From positions 1 to 37,733 of the forward strand of contig JAKALA010000038.1 in the NCBI GenBank assembly GCA_021813325.1: a stretch of 37,733 nucleotides of DNA, written 5' to 3'. Both the position numbers and the translations under genes were made by a program. The notes beneath the pieces were generated by a model that saw only the letters and a program-made list of their open reading frames with translations, was not told the origin of the DNA and did no database searches. Shown piece after piece: positions 10,787-17,914 of the stretch. Numbering within the stretch: position 1 is the stretch's first letter; the number at the start of each line of letters is the position of its first letter. Source of the stretch: a bacterium (GTDB taxonomy: Bacteria > Verrucomicrobiota > Verrucomicrobiia > Limisphaerales > UBA11358).

Positions 10787-11935
10787 TTACGATCCCTTGT
10801 CCAGCTTGGTCAGCAGATCCTCGTTGGTCCGATGCTTCTTGAGCGCAGCCGTCAGGGTTTCCATCGCCTCGATGGGATTCAAATCCACCATGGTGCGACG
10901 GAGCTTGCGAATGGCATCAATGTGTTTCGGCGGGAATAATTTTTCTTCCTTGCGCGTGCCGCTCTTGGGAATGTCAATCGCCGGATACAAACGGCGGTCG
11001 GAAAGTTTGCGGTCCAAAATCAATTCCATGTTACCCGTGCCTTTGAATTCCTGGAAAATCAGCTCGTCCATGCGCGAGCCGGTATCAATGAGCGCCGTGG
11101 CGATGATCGTGAGCGAACCGCCATTCTCAATCTTGCGGGCGGAGGCAAACATTTTGCGGGGAATTTCCAAGGCGCGGGCGTCCACACCGCCGGACATGGT
11201 GCGGCCGCTGCCGCCGTGGGCGCTGTTGTAAGCGCGAGCAATGCGGGTCAATGAATCCATCAGCACGAAAACGTCCTTGCCGGATTCCACCAACCGCCGG
11301 CACCGCTCGATCATGAAACGGGACAGCCGCACGTGCGTTTCGATTTCCATGTCGTTGGAGGAGGCGACAACTTCGGCCTTCACTGAGCGCTGAAAATCGG
11401 TGACTTCTTCGGGACGCTCGTCAATCAACAGCACCAAGGCATGCACCTCGGGATGATTGGTCGTCACGGCGTTGCAAATCTGCTTGAGGATGGTGGTTTT
11501 GCCGGTGCGCGGCGGCGCGACAATCAATCCGCGCGTGCCTTTGCCGATGGGCGTCACCAAATCAATGACGCGGGTTTCAATCAAATCCGGCGTGGTTTCC
11601 AGGTTGAATTTTTCAATCGGATCAATCGAAGTTAAATTCTCAAAGCGCACCGCTTTGGTGTAATCCTGAAATGGCATTTCGTTGACCTTGTCCACCGCCT
11701 TGAGCTGGGGACTGGTGCCGCGATGCGGCGGCTGGGTTGGCCCCTCAATGAAACTTCCCTCGCGCAAGTAGCTGCGGCGGATGGTGTCAGGCGTTACAAA
11801 AATATCCGTAGGCTTGGGATGAAAATGGTTCTGGGCCGTGCGGAGAAACCCAAAACCCTTCTCAGAGATTTCAAGATAGCCACAGCCGTAATTGGGGTTA
11901 ACGGCCTTGTCGCCGTTAGCTTGCGTGTCGTTCAT
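10787..11935 (-). CDS. rho: transcription termination factor Rho
   Basis: This is a 382-residue hexameric RNA helicase that ends transcription. The N-terminal cold-shock-like RNA-binding domain is visible as GYLEISEKGFGFLR and DIFVTPDTIRR (about 20-54). The ATPase domain has the Walker A APPRTGKTT (140-148), Walker B region LVLLIDERPEEVTDF, and SGGVDARAL, RMDELIFQEFKGTGN and LDRKLSDRRLYPAID. The long charged N-terminal extension of some Rho proteins is absent. The WYL regulator follows immediately. There is no obvious Shine-Dalgarno sequence. Confidence 0.97.
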   Translation of the reverse strand: MNDTQANGDKAVNPNYGCGYLEISEKGFGFLRTAQNHFHPKPTDIFVTPDTIRRSYLREGSFIEGPTQPPHRGTSPQLKAVDKVNEMPFQDYTKAVRFENLTSIDPIEKFNLETTPDLIETRVIDLVTPIGKGTRGLIVAPPRTGKTTILKQICNAVTTNHPEVHALVLLIDERPEEVTDFQRSVKAEVVASSNDMEIETHVRLSRFMIERCRRLVESGKDVFVLMDSLTRIARAYNSAHGGSGRTMSGGVDARALEIPRKMFASARKIENGGSLTIIATALIDTGSRMDELIFQEFKGTGNMELILDRKLSDRRLYPAIDIPKSGTRKEEKLFPPKHIDAIRKLRRTMVDLNPIEAMETLTAALKKHRTNEDLLTKLDKGS

Positions 11936-12151: not shown

Positions 12152-13135
12152 TCAACCGCCCACTTCAGCCCGCGCTTCCGCCGCCAGCGCCGTGCTGAGA
12201 TAACGCTCACCCGTCGAACAGGCTACGGTAACAATAGTTTTGCCTTTGTTCTCCGGACGTTTGGCAACTTCAATCGCAGCCACCACGTTGGCCCCCGTGG
12301 AAATCCCCACCAAAATGCCTTCCTCTTTGGCCAGCCGGCGCGCCATGGCGAAGGCATCATCGTTCGTGACTTGGATACACTCAATGATTTGTGGATTGCC
12401 CGAGGCATCCTTCAAATGGAGATTTTTGGGCACAAAGCCCGCGCCCGTTCCCTGAATTTTATGCGGGCCGGGTTTCACGGGCTGGCCCGCCAAAGTTTGC
12501 GAAATCACGGGGGAATCTTTCGGTTCAACGGCGATGGCTTGAAAGGCTGGTTTTTTGTTTTTGATGACCTCAGTTACTCCCGTGAGTGTTCCGCCGGTGC
12601 CAACGGCAGAAATAAAGATGTCAACCTGACCGTCAGTATCTTCCCAAATTTCAACCGCCGTCGTCTTGGAATGAATGGCCGGGTTTGCCGGATTTTCGAA
12701 CTGCTGCGGAATCCATGAGTCGGCCGTTTCTTTGGCGATGGCCTCCGCGCGAGCGATGGCGCCCTTCATGCCCTCGGCGCCCGGAGTCAGCACCAGCTTG
12801 GCCCCCAGCATGGCCAGCAAGGTGCGTCGCTCCAGCGACATGGTCTCGGGCATGGTGAGAATCAACTTGTAACCCTTGGCCGCCGCCACAAATGCCAGGG
12901 CAATTCCCGTGTTGCCGCTGGTCGGCTCGATGATCGTGGTATTTTTGTTTATAACGCCCCGCTTTTCGGCGTCTTCAATCATCGCGGCGCCGATACGATC
13001 CTTGACGCTGCTCAACGGATTAAAAAACTCGCATTTGAGCAGGACTGTCGCATCCGCACCCGCAGTGACTTTATTGAGCTTAACAAGCGGTGTTCGTCCG
13101 ACGGTTTCAACGATGTTATTGTAGATGCGTCCCAT
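12152..13135 (-). CDS. cysK: cysteine synthase (O-acetylserine sulfhydrylase)
   Basis: This 327-residue PLP enzyme makes cysteine from O-acetylserine and sulfide. It starts [13 protein letters not shown]. Visible signatures are NPLSSVKDR with the PLP-binding Lys (about 45), the substrate loop [11 protein letters not shown], the phosphate-binding [10 protein letters not shown], and [11 protein letters not shown]. The frame continues upstream to a TTG at 13174, but the ATG at 13135 matches the family N-terminus. A strong terminator follows. The candidate large RNA ends about 165 bases upstream in the same direction. Confidence 0.95.
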
Positions 13136-13298
13136 AATAATGTTTGATTGAATGATTAAGCTGCTTGTTTGCAATCTTGGCTAAAAGATACTGTCCGGCA
13201 AGTATTAATTCTGTTGGAAAATTTGAACGGGGCGTCGGAATGGCGATGCCGCTGAAATTCCGGGGCATTCCCAAACAATCGATTGAGCCGTTCACGCT

Positions 13299-13341
13299 TA
13301 AAACAATAAGTCCCTGCCCAACCTTTCGGTCAGACAGGGAC
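13299..13341 (-). terminator. minus-strand terminator closing the large RNA candidate
   Basis: The outer stem GTCCCTG (13310-13316) pairs with CAGGGAC (13335-13341). Inside, on the minus strand, ACC-GAAA-GGT forms a GNRA-capped helix. It is followed on the minus strand by TTATTGTTTT. No protein gene ends here, so it appears to terminate the structured transcript upstream. Confidence 0.8.
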
Positions 13342-14130
13342 AAATGGGGGATGGGAGTTCGCCAAGCTCTCTTTCCCGTGCCAGCATTGGGCGCTCCCTT
13401 TTCAGGGGCTGCTGGATTCCCGACGCCATTCTCCACGGCAAGCGGAGTTGCCGGCCTCGTAGCAGGGCCGTCCGGCGGCTTGCGCCGCGCGGATTTCGAG
13501 TGAGGCTTTTCAGCTCGCTTCGGCTGATGGTTGCGCCACCGGCTTACGAACCAGGTCAAGACACGCCTGCGATGCGTGTTCGCGTCTTGACCACTGGCCC
13601 CGGGTCAGCCACCGCTTTTGACGGTGCGTTCGCCCTTGGCCACGGGTCTCGCCTCTTCTCTCTCACGTTGCTTTTTTCTCACAGTCCAGCGGTGTCGTTT
13701 TTAACATCGCCGGCTCTTGGAAGTTTTTCACGGAACCTGCCAAGTTCCCGTGTTCTCCCCGATACGCACGCTCCTTTTGTCCGCCTTTCGGCGTTTTTCG
13801 CTGGGCGGTAATGATTGGATTCAAATCCGCCAGAGCCATCCGCACCGTGCTGATCCACAGTAGCAACTGATCACCCTCTGGATGACTGCGATTCGCTCAT
13901 GCCTGAAACCGGCTTGAACTACTTGACTCAGCTTGAAGTGGTTTCTTTTCACTTCTTGCTGCCGAGTCCCTCATTCGCATTTAACGGTGTGCGAACACCG
14001 TCAGAGGAACTGGTGAATTCTGCCTCCGTCGCGCCTGATGGCGCGGGTTGGAGGAGTCGGAGCAACCAGCCTGATCCGACTTTTCCCCAGTCACCTGGGA
14101 TTATCCTGTAACGAACAACTTTGCTTTTAC
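13300..14130 (-). ncRNA. candidate large structured non-coding RNA
   Basis: About 800 bases with no supported gene but a dense series of perfect short hairpins. Plus-strand stem limits are: 13381-13415 (CCAGCA/TGCTGG enclosing CCC/GGG), 13436-13453, 13475-13488 (GCGGC stem, GCAA loop on the minus strand), 13554-13592 (GGTCAAGA/TCTTGACC enclosing CACGC/GCGTG), 13610-13626, 13729-13752, 13782-13793 (CGCC stem, GAAA loop), 13984-14001, 14030-14045, 14056-14080 and 14086-14099. The GNRA loops and the terminator at 13299-13341 all point to the minus strand. AT-rich DNA at about 14150-14230 could hold the promoter. I found no RNase P, tmRNA, SRP or group II domain V signature. The family is unknown to me. 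Confidence 0.6.
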
Positions 14131-14810
14131 CCGCCGCTGCCCGCTACGTTCTTTCAATGAACTGAAATAATATTAACACGAATTCAAAATTTGCCCATCA
14201 ATTGATATACACCGGTTGTTCACCAATCAAACTGATTTGCCCTTTTCCATCCATCCGGGAAAAATCAGGGGGGATTAAGAAATTTCCGCGCTCCTGATCC
14301 AACCTTATTCACCGGCAAAGTCATGTTGAAAATTCCGTTGTGAACAAGTTCCCAACCGCGCTTTGAATAATTTGATAAAAAAACGAACCGATAGATCGCC
14401 ATTTACATAACTGGGAAATTTGTCACAAGCTTCGGAAAGCGACGATGGCCGGTCGGATGTTGTCGAAGCCCAGGCCAACCATGACGCCAGCCTTGCCGGC
14501 AGGACGTGGGCGCCCAGCGTCGGCAGATCGGCATCCCTACAGCCCTAACCCAAAGTCGCGGAGCGCACGGCGGCGGGCACAACCCGGTGGGCTTTCCTTG
14601 CCACCCCGCGACTGGCAGAAAACGGTTTGTTCAGCGAGGCTTCCGGTGAACCGCCGAAACCAGCACACGAACCGTTTGTGCCCCCATTCCCAATTCGCCT
14701 TTCGGGCTTAGCAGGCGATCTGCTGCAAATTGATTTGAGATTGTTTGTCCCGCGTCAAGCAATCGGCAATCCTGGTGCTTGAGGTTGCTCAATGCCATTA
14801 AGTTTCCCGA
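14131..14810. other. gene-free region, probably decayed DNA
   Basis: About 680 bases. The first 100 are AT-rich and may carry the promoter of the large RNA. The remainder (about 14440-14720) is GC-richer with broken frames on both strands and no motif I recognise. It sits downstream of the truncated ABC exporter and may be the debris of a larger lost region. Confidence 0.4.
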
Positions 14811-15113: not shown

Positions 15114-15662
15114 TCAATCGGAGGAAATTCCCAACAGTTGACCGGCAGGCTCCTTGGTCGGGTCCCAATATTTGATGGCGCGAATGCGCCGGTCGGAGCC
15201 GAGTTCCAATACGGTGACCCGATTGGCTTGCAGCGGAAAATTCTGGAGCATGGCCGCGGAATCAACCAGACCAACGCGGTGAGGATATTTCCGCATTTTT
15301 GGGAAAGCAAACCAACGGGCAACCGCCGGCATTTTGTGAATGTCCATCACAAAACAGGCTTGATGCTTCTCGAGAAATCCACCACCAGCCACCGTGAACT
15401 GCTGATTGGCAGAGGTGGCGCAGGCTCGTTCCACCGCAATGAGCAGATACCGGACGCCATTGGTAAAAATTAATTCTTTGCCAAATTGATCTTTGACGAC
15501 AATCACCGGCGCGAGATCGCCCACAACTAATTGAGCAGCGTGAGCAGAGAAGTTAAACAAGCTTGTGCCCAGCACCAGCGCCAGACAAAGGCGTCGGAAC
15601 AGGATCAAAGGATTAAACAGCTTGAACCCAATCACACCGCAGTTAGACGCTGATGTCTTCAT
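15114..15662 (-). CDS. exported protein, possible thioredoxin fold, unknown function
   Basis: This is a 182-residue protein with a signal peptide or anchor (hydrophobic about 24-42, ending AHA-A). The mature part starts VVGDLAPVIVVKDQFGKEL, reminiscent of peroxiredoxin/AhpC-like proteins, then GVRYLLIAVERACATSANQQ. The CxxC or peroxidatic Cys of that fold is not in place, so catalysis by the usual route is unlikely. The C-terminal part (KYPHRVGLVDSA, VTVLELGSDRRIRAIKYWD) fits the later strands of the fold. Its start overlaps the end of the deaminase gene by 20 bases, implying translational coupling. Confidence 0.6.
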   Translation of the reverse strand: MKTSASNCGVIGFKLFNPLILFRRLCLALVLGTSLFNFSAHAAQLVVGDLAPVIVVKDQFGKELIFTNGVRYLLIAVERACATSANQQFTVAGGGFLEKHQACFVMDIHKMPAVARWFAFPKMRKYPHRVGLVDSAAMLQNFPLQANRVTVLELGSDRRIRAIKYWDPTKEPAGQLLGISSD

Positions 15663-16080
15663 TCCATAATTCCGGCCGGGCTTTGATGAAATCCCGCATC
15701 ATCCGAATGCAAGCCGGATCATTAAGAATCTCCAGTTGGACACCTTGAGAGCGGACATAATTTTCCGGCCCCTGAAACGTCACGTTTTCGCCAATGACAA
15801 TGCGCGGAATTTTGTAAAGCAACGCGGCACCGCTGCACATGGGACAGGGCGACAAGGTGGAATACAAGATGCAACGGGCATAAACGGACGCCTTGAGGCG
15901 ACCGGCGTTTTCGAGGCAGTTCATCTCGGCATGATGAATCACACTGCCGTGTTGCACTCGCTGATTATGACCGCGGCCGATGATTTTCCCATCCAGCACC
16001 AAGATTGATCCGATGGGAATTCCCCCCGCAGCGAGTCCTTTGCGGGCTTCATCCATGGCGGCTTGAAGAAACGGGTCCAT
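15643..16080 (-). CDS. cytosine deaminase, FCY1-like
   Basis: This is a 145-residue zinc deaminase. The zinc site is HAE (H50, E52) and PCPMC (C79, C82). The flanking sequence is close to yeast cytosine deaminase Fcy1 as I remember it: GRGHN, LENAGRL, LYSTLSPCPMCSGA, YKIPRIVIGENV, and an ending with RPELWNEDI. TadA-type tRNA deaminases lack this C-terminal pattern. The likely reaction is cytosine to uracil in pyrimidine salvage. The bacterial codA product is an unrelated, larger amidohydrolase, so this is the eukaryote-like solution. Guanine deaminase or another nucleoside deaminase remains possible. Confidence 0.82.
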   Translation of the reverse strand: MDPFLQAAMDEARKGLAAGGIPIGSILVLDGKIIGRGHNQRVQHGSVIHHAEMNCLENAGRLKASVYARCILYSTLSPCPMCSGAALLYKIPRIVIGENVTFQGPENYVRSQGVQLEILNDPACIRMMRDFIKARPELWNEDISV

Positions 16081-16150: not shown

Positions 16151-17914
16151 CTATTCAGACGTCGGCACCAGTTTCAAGCTGCGCAGATTCATCGGTTGCC
16201 AGCCGGCGCTGACCGGTTTCACGGTCAAAGTCACGACTCCGGGCGCGGCGACTTCCAATATTCCGTTGAGTTTTACCTTTTGAAAATGGGTGTAATCGCC
16301 CGTGTTGGGAGCGGTGCCGGTCACTTTTTGATTTCCCAGCAACACCTCAAAATTTCCCGAGCCCAACGCCGCGATGTCCGACGTCAGTTGAAATTTGCCG
16401 GGTTGGGTCACGCGAAACGTCCAGCTCGCCTGATCGGATGGATTGGTCCAGAAACCGATGTTGTCCTTGCCGCCGCCGGATTCGTAGCGCAGCCCGCCGA
16501 CTAAATCCGCATCCATGGCCGAAAGTTCAATCGCGCCATCCGCGCCCTGGTGCAGGTAGGTGGGAATGACTTCCGGCTGACCTTTGATCTCCAGAACGAC
16601 GGTCGAAGAAACCGGGTCGGGCGCGGTTCTTGGAACCTCAATCACCACATCATCGCCGTCTCGCCGGAGATTCAAAATGTCGCCGGTGGCCAGCAAGCGG
16701 GCGGACGTGGCGACATTCTTGAGACCGGGGACGACAAGTTTTCCGTCATCAGGCCAGTTGAACACATGCAAATAGAGCGTCGAACTGTCGCCCTTCACCT
16801 TTTTGGTGCAACGTCCCCAGGCCAGTTTCTTGAACGGACTGGCGGTGGTGTCATAAATGCCGTCGCCGTTCACCTTCATCCAGGCACCCACCTCCTTGAG
16901 CCGCTCAATGCTAGGATCAGGAATCAAACCTTCACTCGTCGGGCCGACATTCAGCAGATAATTGCCGCCTTTGCTGGCGATATCCACCAGGTTGCGAATG
17001 ATGGTTTCAATGGATTTCCAATTGTGATCGTGGGTTTTGAACCCCCAAGTGTCGTTCATGGTCATGCAGGTTTCCCAGTCGCGTCCGGGAAAACCGGTGG
17101 GGGGAATAAACTGTTCGGGCGTTTCGGTGTCGCCTTGATAACCACCGCCCAGACGGTTGTTGTGAATGATGCCGGGTTTCAGTTTTAGAACGGCGATCAA
17201 TTTATCCGCGTTTTCCTTGCTCATGTCGCAGGGCGTGTCCCACCACAGCACCACCGGGAATTCGCCGTAATTGGACAACAATTCCTTCACCTGCGGGACC
17301 GCGACCTTGTCCACGTAATCATTCATGTCGTGCTTTTGAGCCGGATCCCAACTGCCGGCGCATTCCGCACCGCCGTTGTTCCAATCCTGCGCCTGGGAAT
17401 AATAGAACCCGAGTTTGATGCCGTATTTGCGGCACGCGGCAGCCAACGGCTTCAGCACATCTTTTCCATAAGGCGTGGCCTTGACGATGTTCCAAGCGCT
17501 GGCCTGGGAATTAAAATTCGCGAACCCGTCATGGTGTTTGGCGGTGATCACGATATATTTCATGCCGGCCTCCTTGGCCAGACGCACCCAGTCGTCGGCA
17601 TTGTATTTCACCGGGTTATATTCCTTGGCGAAGCGCTGGTATTCGGCCATGGGAATTTTGGCGTCGCTCATGATCCATTCGCCCAGTCCGCCAATTTCCT
17701 TTCCGTGATAGACGCCCGCCGGAACTGAATAAACGCCCCAGTGAATGAACATGCCGAAGCGCGCCTCGCGCCACCACTGCATGCGGGCATCGCGTTGCGC
17801 CGGGGTTTCGTGGGCGTATGGATCCGGCGAATCAGCCGCAAAAACAGCGCAGTTGATCAACGAGACCAGCAGCAGGCTGGCCAGAACGACTTTGGTTTGA
17901 AGGCGGGTTGGCAT
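16151..17914 (-). CDS. alpha-L-fucosidase, GH29
   Basis: This is a 587-residue exported glycoside hydrolase removing alpha-L-fucose from glycans. The signal peptide ends VFA-A (about 26). GH29 hallmarks are MQWWREARFGMFIHWGVYS (45-63), GMKYIVITAKHHDGFANF and VVLWWDTPCD, with the probable nucleophile Asp at 226. KGGNYLLNVGPTSEGLIP marks the end of the barrel domain. Residues from about 460 to the end form a second beta-rich, probably carbohydrate-binding module. Other polysaccharide genes are not adjacent, and no acid/base residue can be assigned by eye. Confidence 0.93.
   Translation of the reverse strand: MPTRLQTKVVLASLLLVSLINCAVFAADSPDPYAHETPAQRDARMQWWREARFGMFIHWGVYSVPAGVYHGKEIGGLGEWIMSDAKIPMAEYQRFAKEYNPVKYNADDWVRLAKEAGMKYIVITAKHHDGFANFNSQASAWNIVKATPYGKDVLKPLAAACRKYGIKLGFYYSQAQDWNNGGAECAGSWDPAQKHDMNDYVDKVAVPQVKELLSNYGEFPVVLWWDTPCDMSKENADKLIAVLKLKPGIIHNNRLGGGYQGDTETPEQFIPPTGFPGRDWETCMTMNDTWGFKTHDHNWKSIETIIRNLVDIASKGGNYLLNVGPTSEGLIPDPSIERLKEVGAWMKVNGDGIYDTTASPFKKLAWGRCTKKVKGDSSTLYLHVFNWPDDGKLVVPGLKNVATSARLLATGDILNLRRDGDDVVIEVPRTAPDPVSSTVVLEIKGQPEVIPTYLHQGADGAIELSAMDADLVGGLRYESGGGKDNIGFWTNPSDQASWTFRVTQPGKFQLTSDIAALGSGNFEVLLGNQKVTGTAPNTGDYTHFQKVKLNGILEVAAPGVVTLTVKPVSAGWQPMNLRSLKLVPTSE

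Follow-up and report, generated by a model that had tools for sequence, protein, structure and literature searches.

The block at positions 13300-14130 of the window, by which is meant the whole 37,733-nt stretch of DNA analysed, is, on the strength of a covariance-model match, the gene of the MISL RNA, a catalogued large bacterial RNA, in a Verrucomicrobiota genome. The minus strand of 13354-14106, a body of 753 nt, scores 589 bits with cmscan (Rfam 15) for RF03079 (MISL RNA), whose cut-off is 274.6, and the alignment spans the entire model (positions 1-751 of 751). This was the sole Rfam 15 match within the window, and a permissive scan of 12800-14600, with E-values up to 5, listed besides MISL just one sub-threshold sRNA. 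It is this match, and not the number of hairpins, that is decisive for the identity. An earlier note on the same DNA had taken the block for a possible undescribed large RNA and had itself proposed the Rfam comparison, which refutes the word "undescribed". A new class of RNA would agree with a large, dense and gene-free block that ends in a terminator, and with the few searchable papers in which the MISL family is mentioned; its probability is nevertheless practically nil in view of the full-length match, and it was rejected. The family is said to stem from work of Weinberg and colleagues that appeared in 2017 in Nucleic Acids Research. In the searchable literature, with most subscription papers outside its scope, almost nothing was found on MISL, no mention of RF03079 and no text joining MISL with "Weinberg" and "ncRNA". 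Chemical mapping of MISL RNA appears in figure legends of the Ribonanza study (PMC10925082).

That the minus strand encodes a large structured RNA, as the earlier note held, is borne out by the RF03079 match and by a dense minus-strand fold. The model has 177 pairs, 171 of which fall on bases of the window, where 157 are standard pairs. The minimum free energy (MFE) of 13354-14106 on the minus strand is -313.3 kcal/mol; 40 dinucleotide shuffles average -272.2 with an sd of 8.5, which gives z = -4.8, while the plus strand reaches z = -2.9. The twelve or more perfect hairpins reported for the block depend on the stem length required: with loops of 3-8 nt, 13300-14130 has nine if a perfect Watson-Crick stem must measure 5 bp or more, and 13 if stems of 4 bp are admitted. 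Shuffling that block 200 times gave a mean of 4.0 (sd 1.84, maximum 9), and at least nine hairpins were reached by 5 of 93 windows of 831 nt taken along the whole sequence at a step of 400, some of which overlap the block; by itself, therefore, the hairpin density is only moderately unusual. GNRA loops, said to read correctly on the minus strand only, do lie mostly there, but not exclusively (two minus-strand loops to one plus-strand loop where the stem must have 5 bp or more, four to one where 4 bp suffice). The proposed likeness to the ornate RNAs GOLLD, ROOL and OLE is reasonable as to kind, but no match to their covariance models was listed in the Rfam scans, where MISL alone stood above its cut-off. 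In size class and in its elaborate, pseudoknotted structure MISL is comparable to these RNAs as described in PMC12286853; ROOL and GOLLD are encoded by phages or prophages according to that paper, whereas the MISL gene described here is chromosomal.

A single copy of MISL is present in the assembly of the source genome, which is 95% complete. With this genome counted, the RNA was found in 24 of 288 genomes sampled across the phylum (23 over the cut-off) and in 128 of 293 sampled within the order (122 over the cut-off); it was found in none of 14 control genomes. A pattern scan of named genomes returned at least 118 MISL stretches and, among the matches listed, 117 are titled Verrucomicrobiota or member groups, with many Opitutales/Opitutaceae, subdivision 3 and Limisphaerales, some of these titled groups being ones that we take to belong to Verrucomicrobiota; one listed match (L038) is titled "bacterium" only. 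Two full copies occur in one genome (G155) and a second, shorter match in another (G516), and three genomes (G485, G538, G308) have partial matches, some of them at contig ends. Full-length match, nested structure, size and Verrucomicrobiota hosts are thus common to the block and to the catalogued family. As a member of the family the block is not different; a conserved 5' element, a leader hairpin, a cluster of DnaA-box-like words and five further helices lie beyond what the Rfam match displays.

At its 3' end the RNA is followed by an intrinsic terminator hairpin on the minus strand (13310-13341), which continues into the U-rich tail TTATTGTTTT, so that the terminator named in the earlier note stands. 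A terminator-like hairpin is found just 3' of MISL in 104 of 116 homologous loci versus 9 of 322 control windows. The description of the block as gene-free holds as well. Three mechanical open reading frames run over it, and frame-shifting indels break them in 109, 116 and 109 of 116 homologues. The variability at the three codon positions is 0.189/0.222/0.268, 0.274/0.249/0.226 and 0.188/0.170/0.240; the slightly more variable third position of two of the frames is outweighed by the indels, and a protein-coding block was rejected. As a coding test, tblastn has to be read with the fact that conservation of the RNA itself gives translated matches.

The genes around MISL vary (names outside the window's proteins were read by eye from sequence). 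In the window, all on the minus strand, a cysteine-synthase-type gene of the PALP family (12152-13174) lies directly downstream, followed by the gene for the Rho transcription termination factor (10787-11935), and genes for a cytidine-deaminase-family protein (15643-16080) and an alpha-L-fucosidase (16151-17914) lie upstream. Across the 117 loci, whose flanks vary in length, no universal partner gene was seen and no neighbour family exceeds 25 loci: a helicase-like gene, called by eye, is upstream in 25, a cysK-like gene is downstream on the same strand in 17, and other families reach at most 15. A Rho-like protein, also called by eye, is encoded downstream of MISL in eight of the 117 loci. 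The position of the PALP-family gene, on the same strand and directly downstream, and the recurrence of its homologue in those 17 loci would be expected if MISL were a cis-acting, riboswitch-like leader of gene 12152-13174. Such a role is very improbable, as a terminator separates the RNA from the gene, and one likewise follows MISL in the 104 loci mentioned; in 100 of 117 loci the gene was not seen in the flank examined, which measured at least 900 nt in 103, and elsewhere MISL is flanked by unrelated genes, in either orientation. The lack of a universal partner gene instead suggests that MISL probably acts in trans, and varied neighbours, terminator and lack of a conserved frame make a stand-alone, trans-acting RNA the best reading. 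It is likely that MISL is transcribed alone and would work in trans as a structural RNA, compact and pseudoknotted, either by itself or together with a housekeeping protein.

At the other end, judged from conservation across the family, the gene starts upstream of the Rfam boundary with a conserved leader, and the conserved unit passes the upper edge first drawn for the block to reach about 14162. The leader begins with a boxA-like 5' element of 15 nt, GTTCATTGAAAGAAC (14148-14162, minus strand), which has no other copy in the assembly of the source genome. Elements of the GTTCnTTGAnAGAAC type mostly lie 59-60 nt upstream of the MISL start, the exact ones at 39-117 nt. Among the 111 loci with at least 120 nt of upstream sequence (the viral contig L144 and five other loci, with less, are left out of these counts), GTTCnTTGAnAGAA occurs within two mismatches in all 111 and exactly in 95, and no exact copy was found elsewhere in those loci, MISL body excluded, in 1.115 Mb on both strands. 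In 10 of 10 MISL-bearing genomes searched there is exactly one copy of the 15-nt element, adjoining MISL, and its reversed control has no match in those genomes. Between the element and MISL lies a leader hairpin, P0 (14108-14147, minus strand). In the 107 leaders of 30-75 nt, the only lengths counted, the MFE fold contains a closing P0 hairpin in every case, versus 36.6 expected from shuffles; the hairpin covaries, with 40 distinct outer stems among the leaders. Two MISL-bearing RNA-phage contigs include 46 and 61 nt of sequence ahead of the Rfam start, in keeping with an RNA whose 5' end lies further upstream.

The 5' element shares with the boxA of rRNA leaders, the site of a Nus factor complex, a GTTCnTTGA core close to the start of a long untranslated RNA, although the MISL element has a variable fifth base and, after the core, a GAAC arm. 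The gamma-proteobacterial boxA consensus is GYTCTTTAANA, and boxA serves genes beyond rRNA according to a survey which left out non-coding RNAs (PMC5725501). For boxA and NusB on structured noncoding RNA, the searchable literature gave rRNA only, most subscription papers being outside its scope. Candidate rRNA sites of relatives were sought with a bacterial 16S rRNA model, which matched in only 5 of 14 genomes: that of the source genome is a fragment without the 5' end, and no match was obtained in G018, G099, G274, G122, G091, G271, G128, G210 and G169, some of them single-contig. All three loci with enough sequence before the 16S gene (L270, L271, L272) have a one-mismatch GTTCnTTGAnA site within 200 nt, at 133-181 nt upstream, a criterion that also matches elsewhere (L271 at +1151 and -1387, L270 at -4081). 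A one-mismatch site also follows the 16S gene in L269, L270 and L271, and the 16S fragment of the source genome (L273) is followed by an exact one. With respect to these rRNA sites the MISL element differs in its fifth base and has the additional GAAC arm.

That arm forms near-invariant inverted repeats (GTTC...GAAC), and the element adjoins MISL once per genome in the ten genomes searched; both features would suit an operator bound by some protein at the DNA level, or else a small hairpin at the 5' end of the RNA (GUUC...GAAC). This is a serious alternative, though the less probable one. Four loci (L020, L021, L022, L080) keep the TCTTTGA core with one or more of the four arm pairs disrupted, and three of them (L021, L022, L080) carry GATCTTTGA, a variant which recurs in one rRNA leader of the phylum. 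We therefore lean, with modest confidence, towards a putative boxA, a resemblance that suggests antitermination: with boxA and Nus factors, RNA polymerase would reach the end of a long RNA that is not translated before Rho could stop it, as in rRNA.

Further upstream, words resembling the DnaA box, whose consensus is TTATNCACA, are found at 14216-14224 (TTGTTCACC, plus strand), 14305-14313 (TTATTCACC, plus strand) and 14339-14347 (TTGTTCACA, minus strand). All three are near matches, none of them has the strict TTATNCACA form, and the first two belong to a family-wide enrichment. Throughout the family such words cluster 60-240 nt upstream of MISL. The pattern TTATNCACM occurs at 4.1 per kb in the interval 60-120 nt upstream, 10.8 at 120-180 (72 words in 49 of 111 loci), 5.5 at 180-240 and 0.3 at 240-340; it is absent further out, at 340-1500 nt, and its downstream density is 0.02 per kb. 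Three permuted control patterns never exceed 0.15 per kb, whichever bin is taken. Of 108 loci, 99 have one or more words of the form TTATNCACM or TTGTTCACM, and in an unbiased count of upstream 8-mers TTATTCAC ranks first, in 83 loci. As a reference, TTATTCACA was looked for at main dnaA-gene loci and is present in 7 of 9, the locus of a dnaA paralogue that has no box (L350) being left out, versus seven TTATNCACM in a 190-kb background of G385. The promoter-like DNA that the earlier note had placed beside the block was not recovered: no promoter of the sigma-70 type emerged from a consensus scan of 13200-14400, and upstream promoter scores of that type in the family are hardly better than those of shuffles (7.32 versus 7.20).

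A cluster of DnaA-like words could also mark a replication origin, with MISL beside oriC. This is extremely improbable, given that MISL and dnaA are 0.16-2.2 Mb apart in seven genomes that each consist of a single contig, taken as circular, and 0.28 Mb apart in G128, and that in G274 the sampled GC skew turns at about 1.4 and 3.4 Mb with MISL at 3.14 Mb; in G385 the sampled skew was too noisy to place turning points. The cluster is thus probably not the origin. It is proposed, tentatively and with chances a little short of even, that DnaA influences the MISL promoter, on which these putative sites would act.

Within the body, covariation points to structure beyond the displayed model. From 175 MISL loci 25 partial ones were dropped, and the 150 full-length sequences were reduced, at below 95% identity, to 117 with a mean pairwise identity of 65%, one of which (L144) is a chimeric viral contig. 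Covariation was scored with our own R-scape-like script, and not with R-scape, as an APC-corrected G-test with a tree-based null and 12 null alignments; paired fractions and compensatory changes were counted on alignments of related sequences. Compensatory changes, which the earlier note had put forward as a check, are present in the model pairs as well as in the extra helices. In the 117 sequences, 19 pairs have E of at most 0.5, and 16 of them belong to the model; outside it fall 241-439, with a score higher than any in the null alignments, 643-678 (E 0.08) and 427-536 (E 0.25). A search for stacks gave five unmodelled helices with scores of 64-157, an extension of a model hairpin at 49, and 32 for the next unmodelled stack. 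In the 117 sequences the five helices, A-E, are 94.5-100% paired with 11-32 compensatory changes on the tree, versus 0-10 for slid controls.

In what follows, MISL position n corresponds to window position 14107-n, and all arms are on the minus strand. Helix A pairs MISL 38-42 (14065-14069) with 253-257 (13850-13854); it is 99.1% paired in the 117 sequences, with 15 compensatory changes (at most 3 when slid), and 100% paired in a separate alignment of 24 sequences. Its last pair, 42-253, and the innermost pair of the model, 36-42, compete for the same base. Helix B joins 113-117 (13990-13994) to 128-132 (13975-13979) and is 94.5% paired with 15 changes (slid, at most 5); it is the weakest of the five because it is just 72.6% paired in the 24-sequence alignment. 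Helix C, between 239-244 (13863-13868) and 436-441 (13666-13671), has standard bases in five of its six pairs in the window and is 97.2% paired with 32 changes (slid, at most 10); it contains the pair 241-439. Helix D connects 423-428 (13679-13684) with 535-540 (13567-13572), the latter inside the loop of a model hairpin, and is 96.5% paired with 20 changes (slid, at most 10), including the pair 427-536. In helix E, 643-647 (13460-13464), again inside a model-hairpin loop, pairs with 679-683 (13424-13428): all sequences are paired in both alignments, with 11 changes in the 117 (slid, at most 2). The pair 643-678 belongs to another register and was not used in support of helix E. The outward extension of the model hairpin, 394-400 with 415-421 (13686-13713), is nested and covaries, being 83.9% paired with 26 changes (slid, at most 10) and 82.1% paired in the 24-sequence alignment. 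In that alignment A-E and the extension together are 90.1% paired versus 28-46% when slid, a level that none of 500 shuffles attains, and 23 of their 34 pairs change on both sides; sequences of common descent can exceed such shuffles, and the structure was derived from sequences that overlap with this set.

Helix A crosses helix C, loops of model hairpins take part in B, D and E, and A also uses a model loop; the extra helices are therefore predicted pseudoknots. They are absent from the nested structure displayed by cmscan, whose structure line cannot be expected to show any pseudoknot, and they may already be annotated elsewhere. Three other stacks were dropped. The contact 713-717 with 744-748 is 82.1% paired with five changes (slid, up to 3), and 231-233 with 641-643 is 98.0% paired with four changes, yet its slid versions reach 94% and three changes. 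The third, 162-166 with 198-202 (window 13941-13945 and 13905-13909), is 95.9% paired with two compensatory changes, versus up to six when slid; it could be a GAAAC-GUUUC loop-loop contact, without clear covariation.

As read from conservation and covariation, the unit consists of the DnaA-like cluster, the 15-nt element, P0, the 753-nt body, the five extra helices and the terminator. That the whole is a MISL gene in a unit of leader, helices and terminator is held with considerable confidence; the boxA, the DnaA sites and action in trans are presumed parts of this reading, at the strengths given above. A more speculative extension, itself rather unlikely, would make of MISL a growth-linked, abundant housekeeping RNA expressed in the manner of rRNA, with a promoter tuned by DnaA, boxA and Nus factors countering Rho, and a pseudoknotted RNA particle as the product. 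The identity of MISL was already known; leader and extra helices are additions to the family, possibly reported before. In practical terms, the leader beyond the Rfam boundary allows constructs for expression or structural studies to be given better-founded ends, and a three-dimensional model of the RNA is constrained by the five helices. Should the boxA and DnaA readings be true, an orphan RNA would be linked with the replication cycle as well as with transcription of the rRNA type, its function would become testable, and rRNA-type antitermination would serve, unusually, a stand-alone structured RNA.

Pieces of MISL were also found on three ssRNA-phage contigs and on one 15-kb DNA-phage contig, whose gene was read by eye. 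In all four (L144, L145, L255, L256) the piece is in the sense orientation at the 5' end, and the cut point is different in each. Of the two tested against Rfam, L144 reaches 543 bits, above the cut-off, and L145 lies below it; the pieces in L145, L255 and L256 rest on nhmmer. The sense orientation and 5' position in the three ssRNA-phage contigs would be expected if RNA phages had truly captured MISL as genetic cargo, and in a control with a 23S-rRNA pattern the pieces lie instead on the 3' side of the phages. Such a capture is nonetheless highly unlikely: apart from the differing cut points and the piece on a DNA phage, no MISL was found in 79 replicase relatives of L144 (the best 80 of 295, L144 included), many of whose contigs do not extend as far as the 5' end, and similar phage chimeras are formed by pieces of other RNAs. 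Both matches of the 23S control (L339, L340) are ssRNA-phage contigs, and among 51 matches to an RNase P pattern, the one followed (L325; two ends of L307 were also inspected) is a fragment joined to a phage capsid-like gene; both controls were assessed from the pattern matches and by eye. The MISL, 23S and RNase P pieces are all accounted for by template switching or misassembly that involves abundant RNAs, and the fusions are therefore probably chimeras of this kind. RNA phages have no DNA stage; the pieces on their contigs suggest that MISL is transcribed, carry-over of DNA into an RNA library being a possible alternative. The nearest relative of L144 (L176) starts inside the phage genome, and its contig begins beyond the region of the junction.
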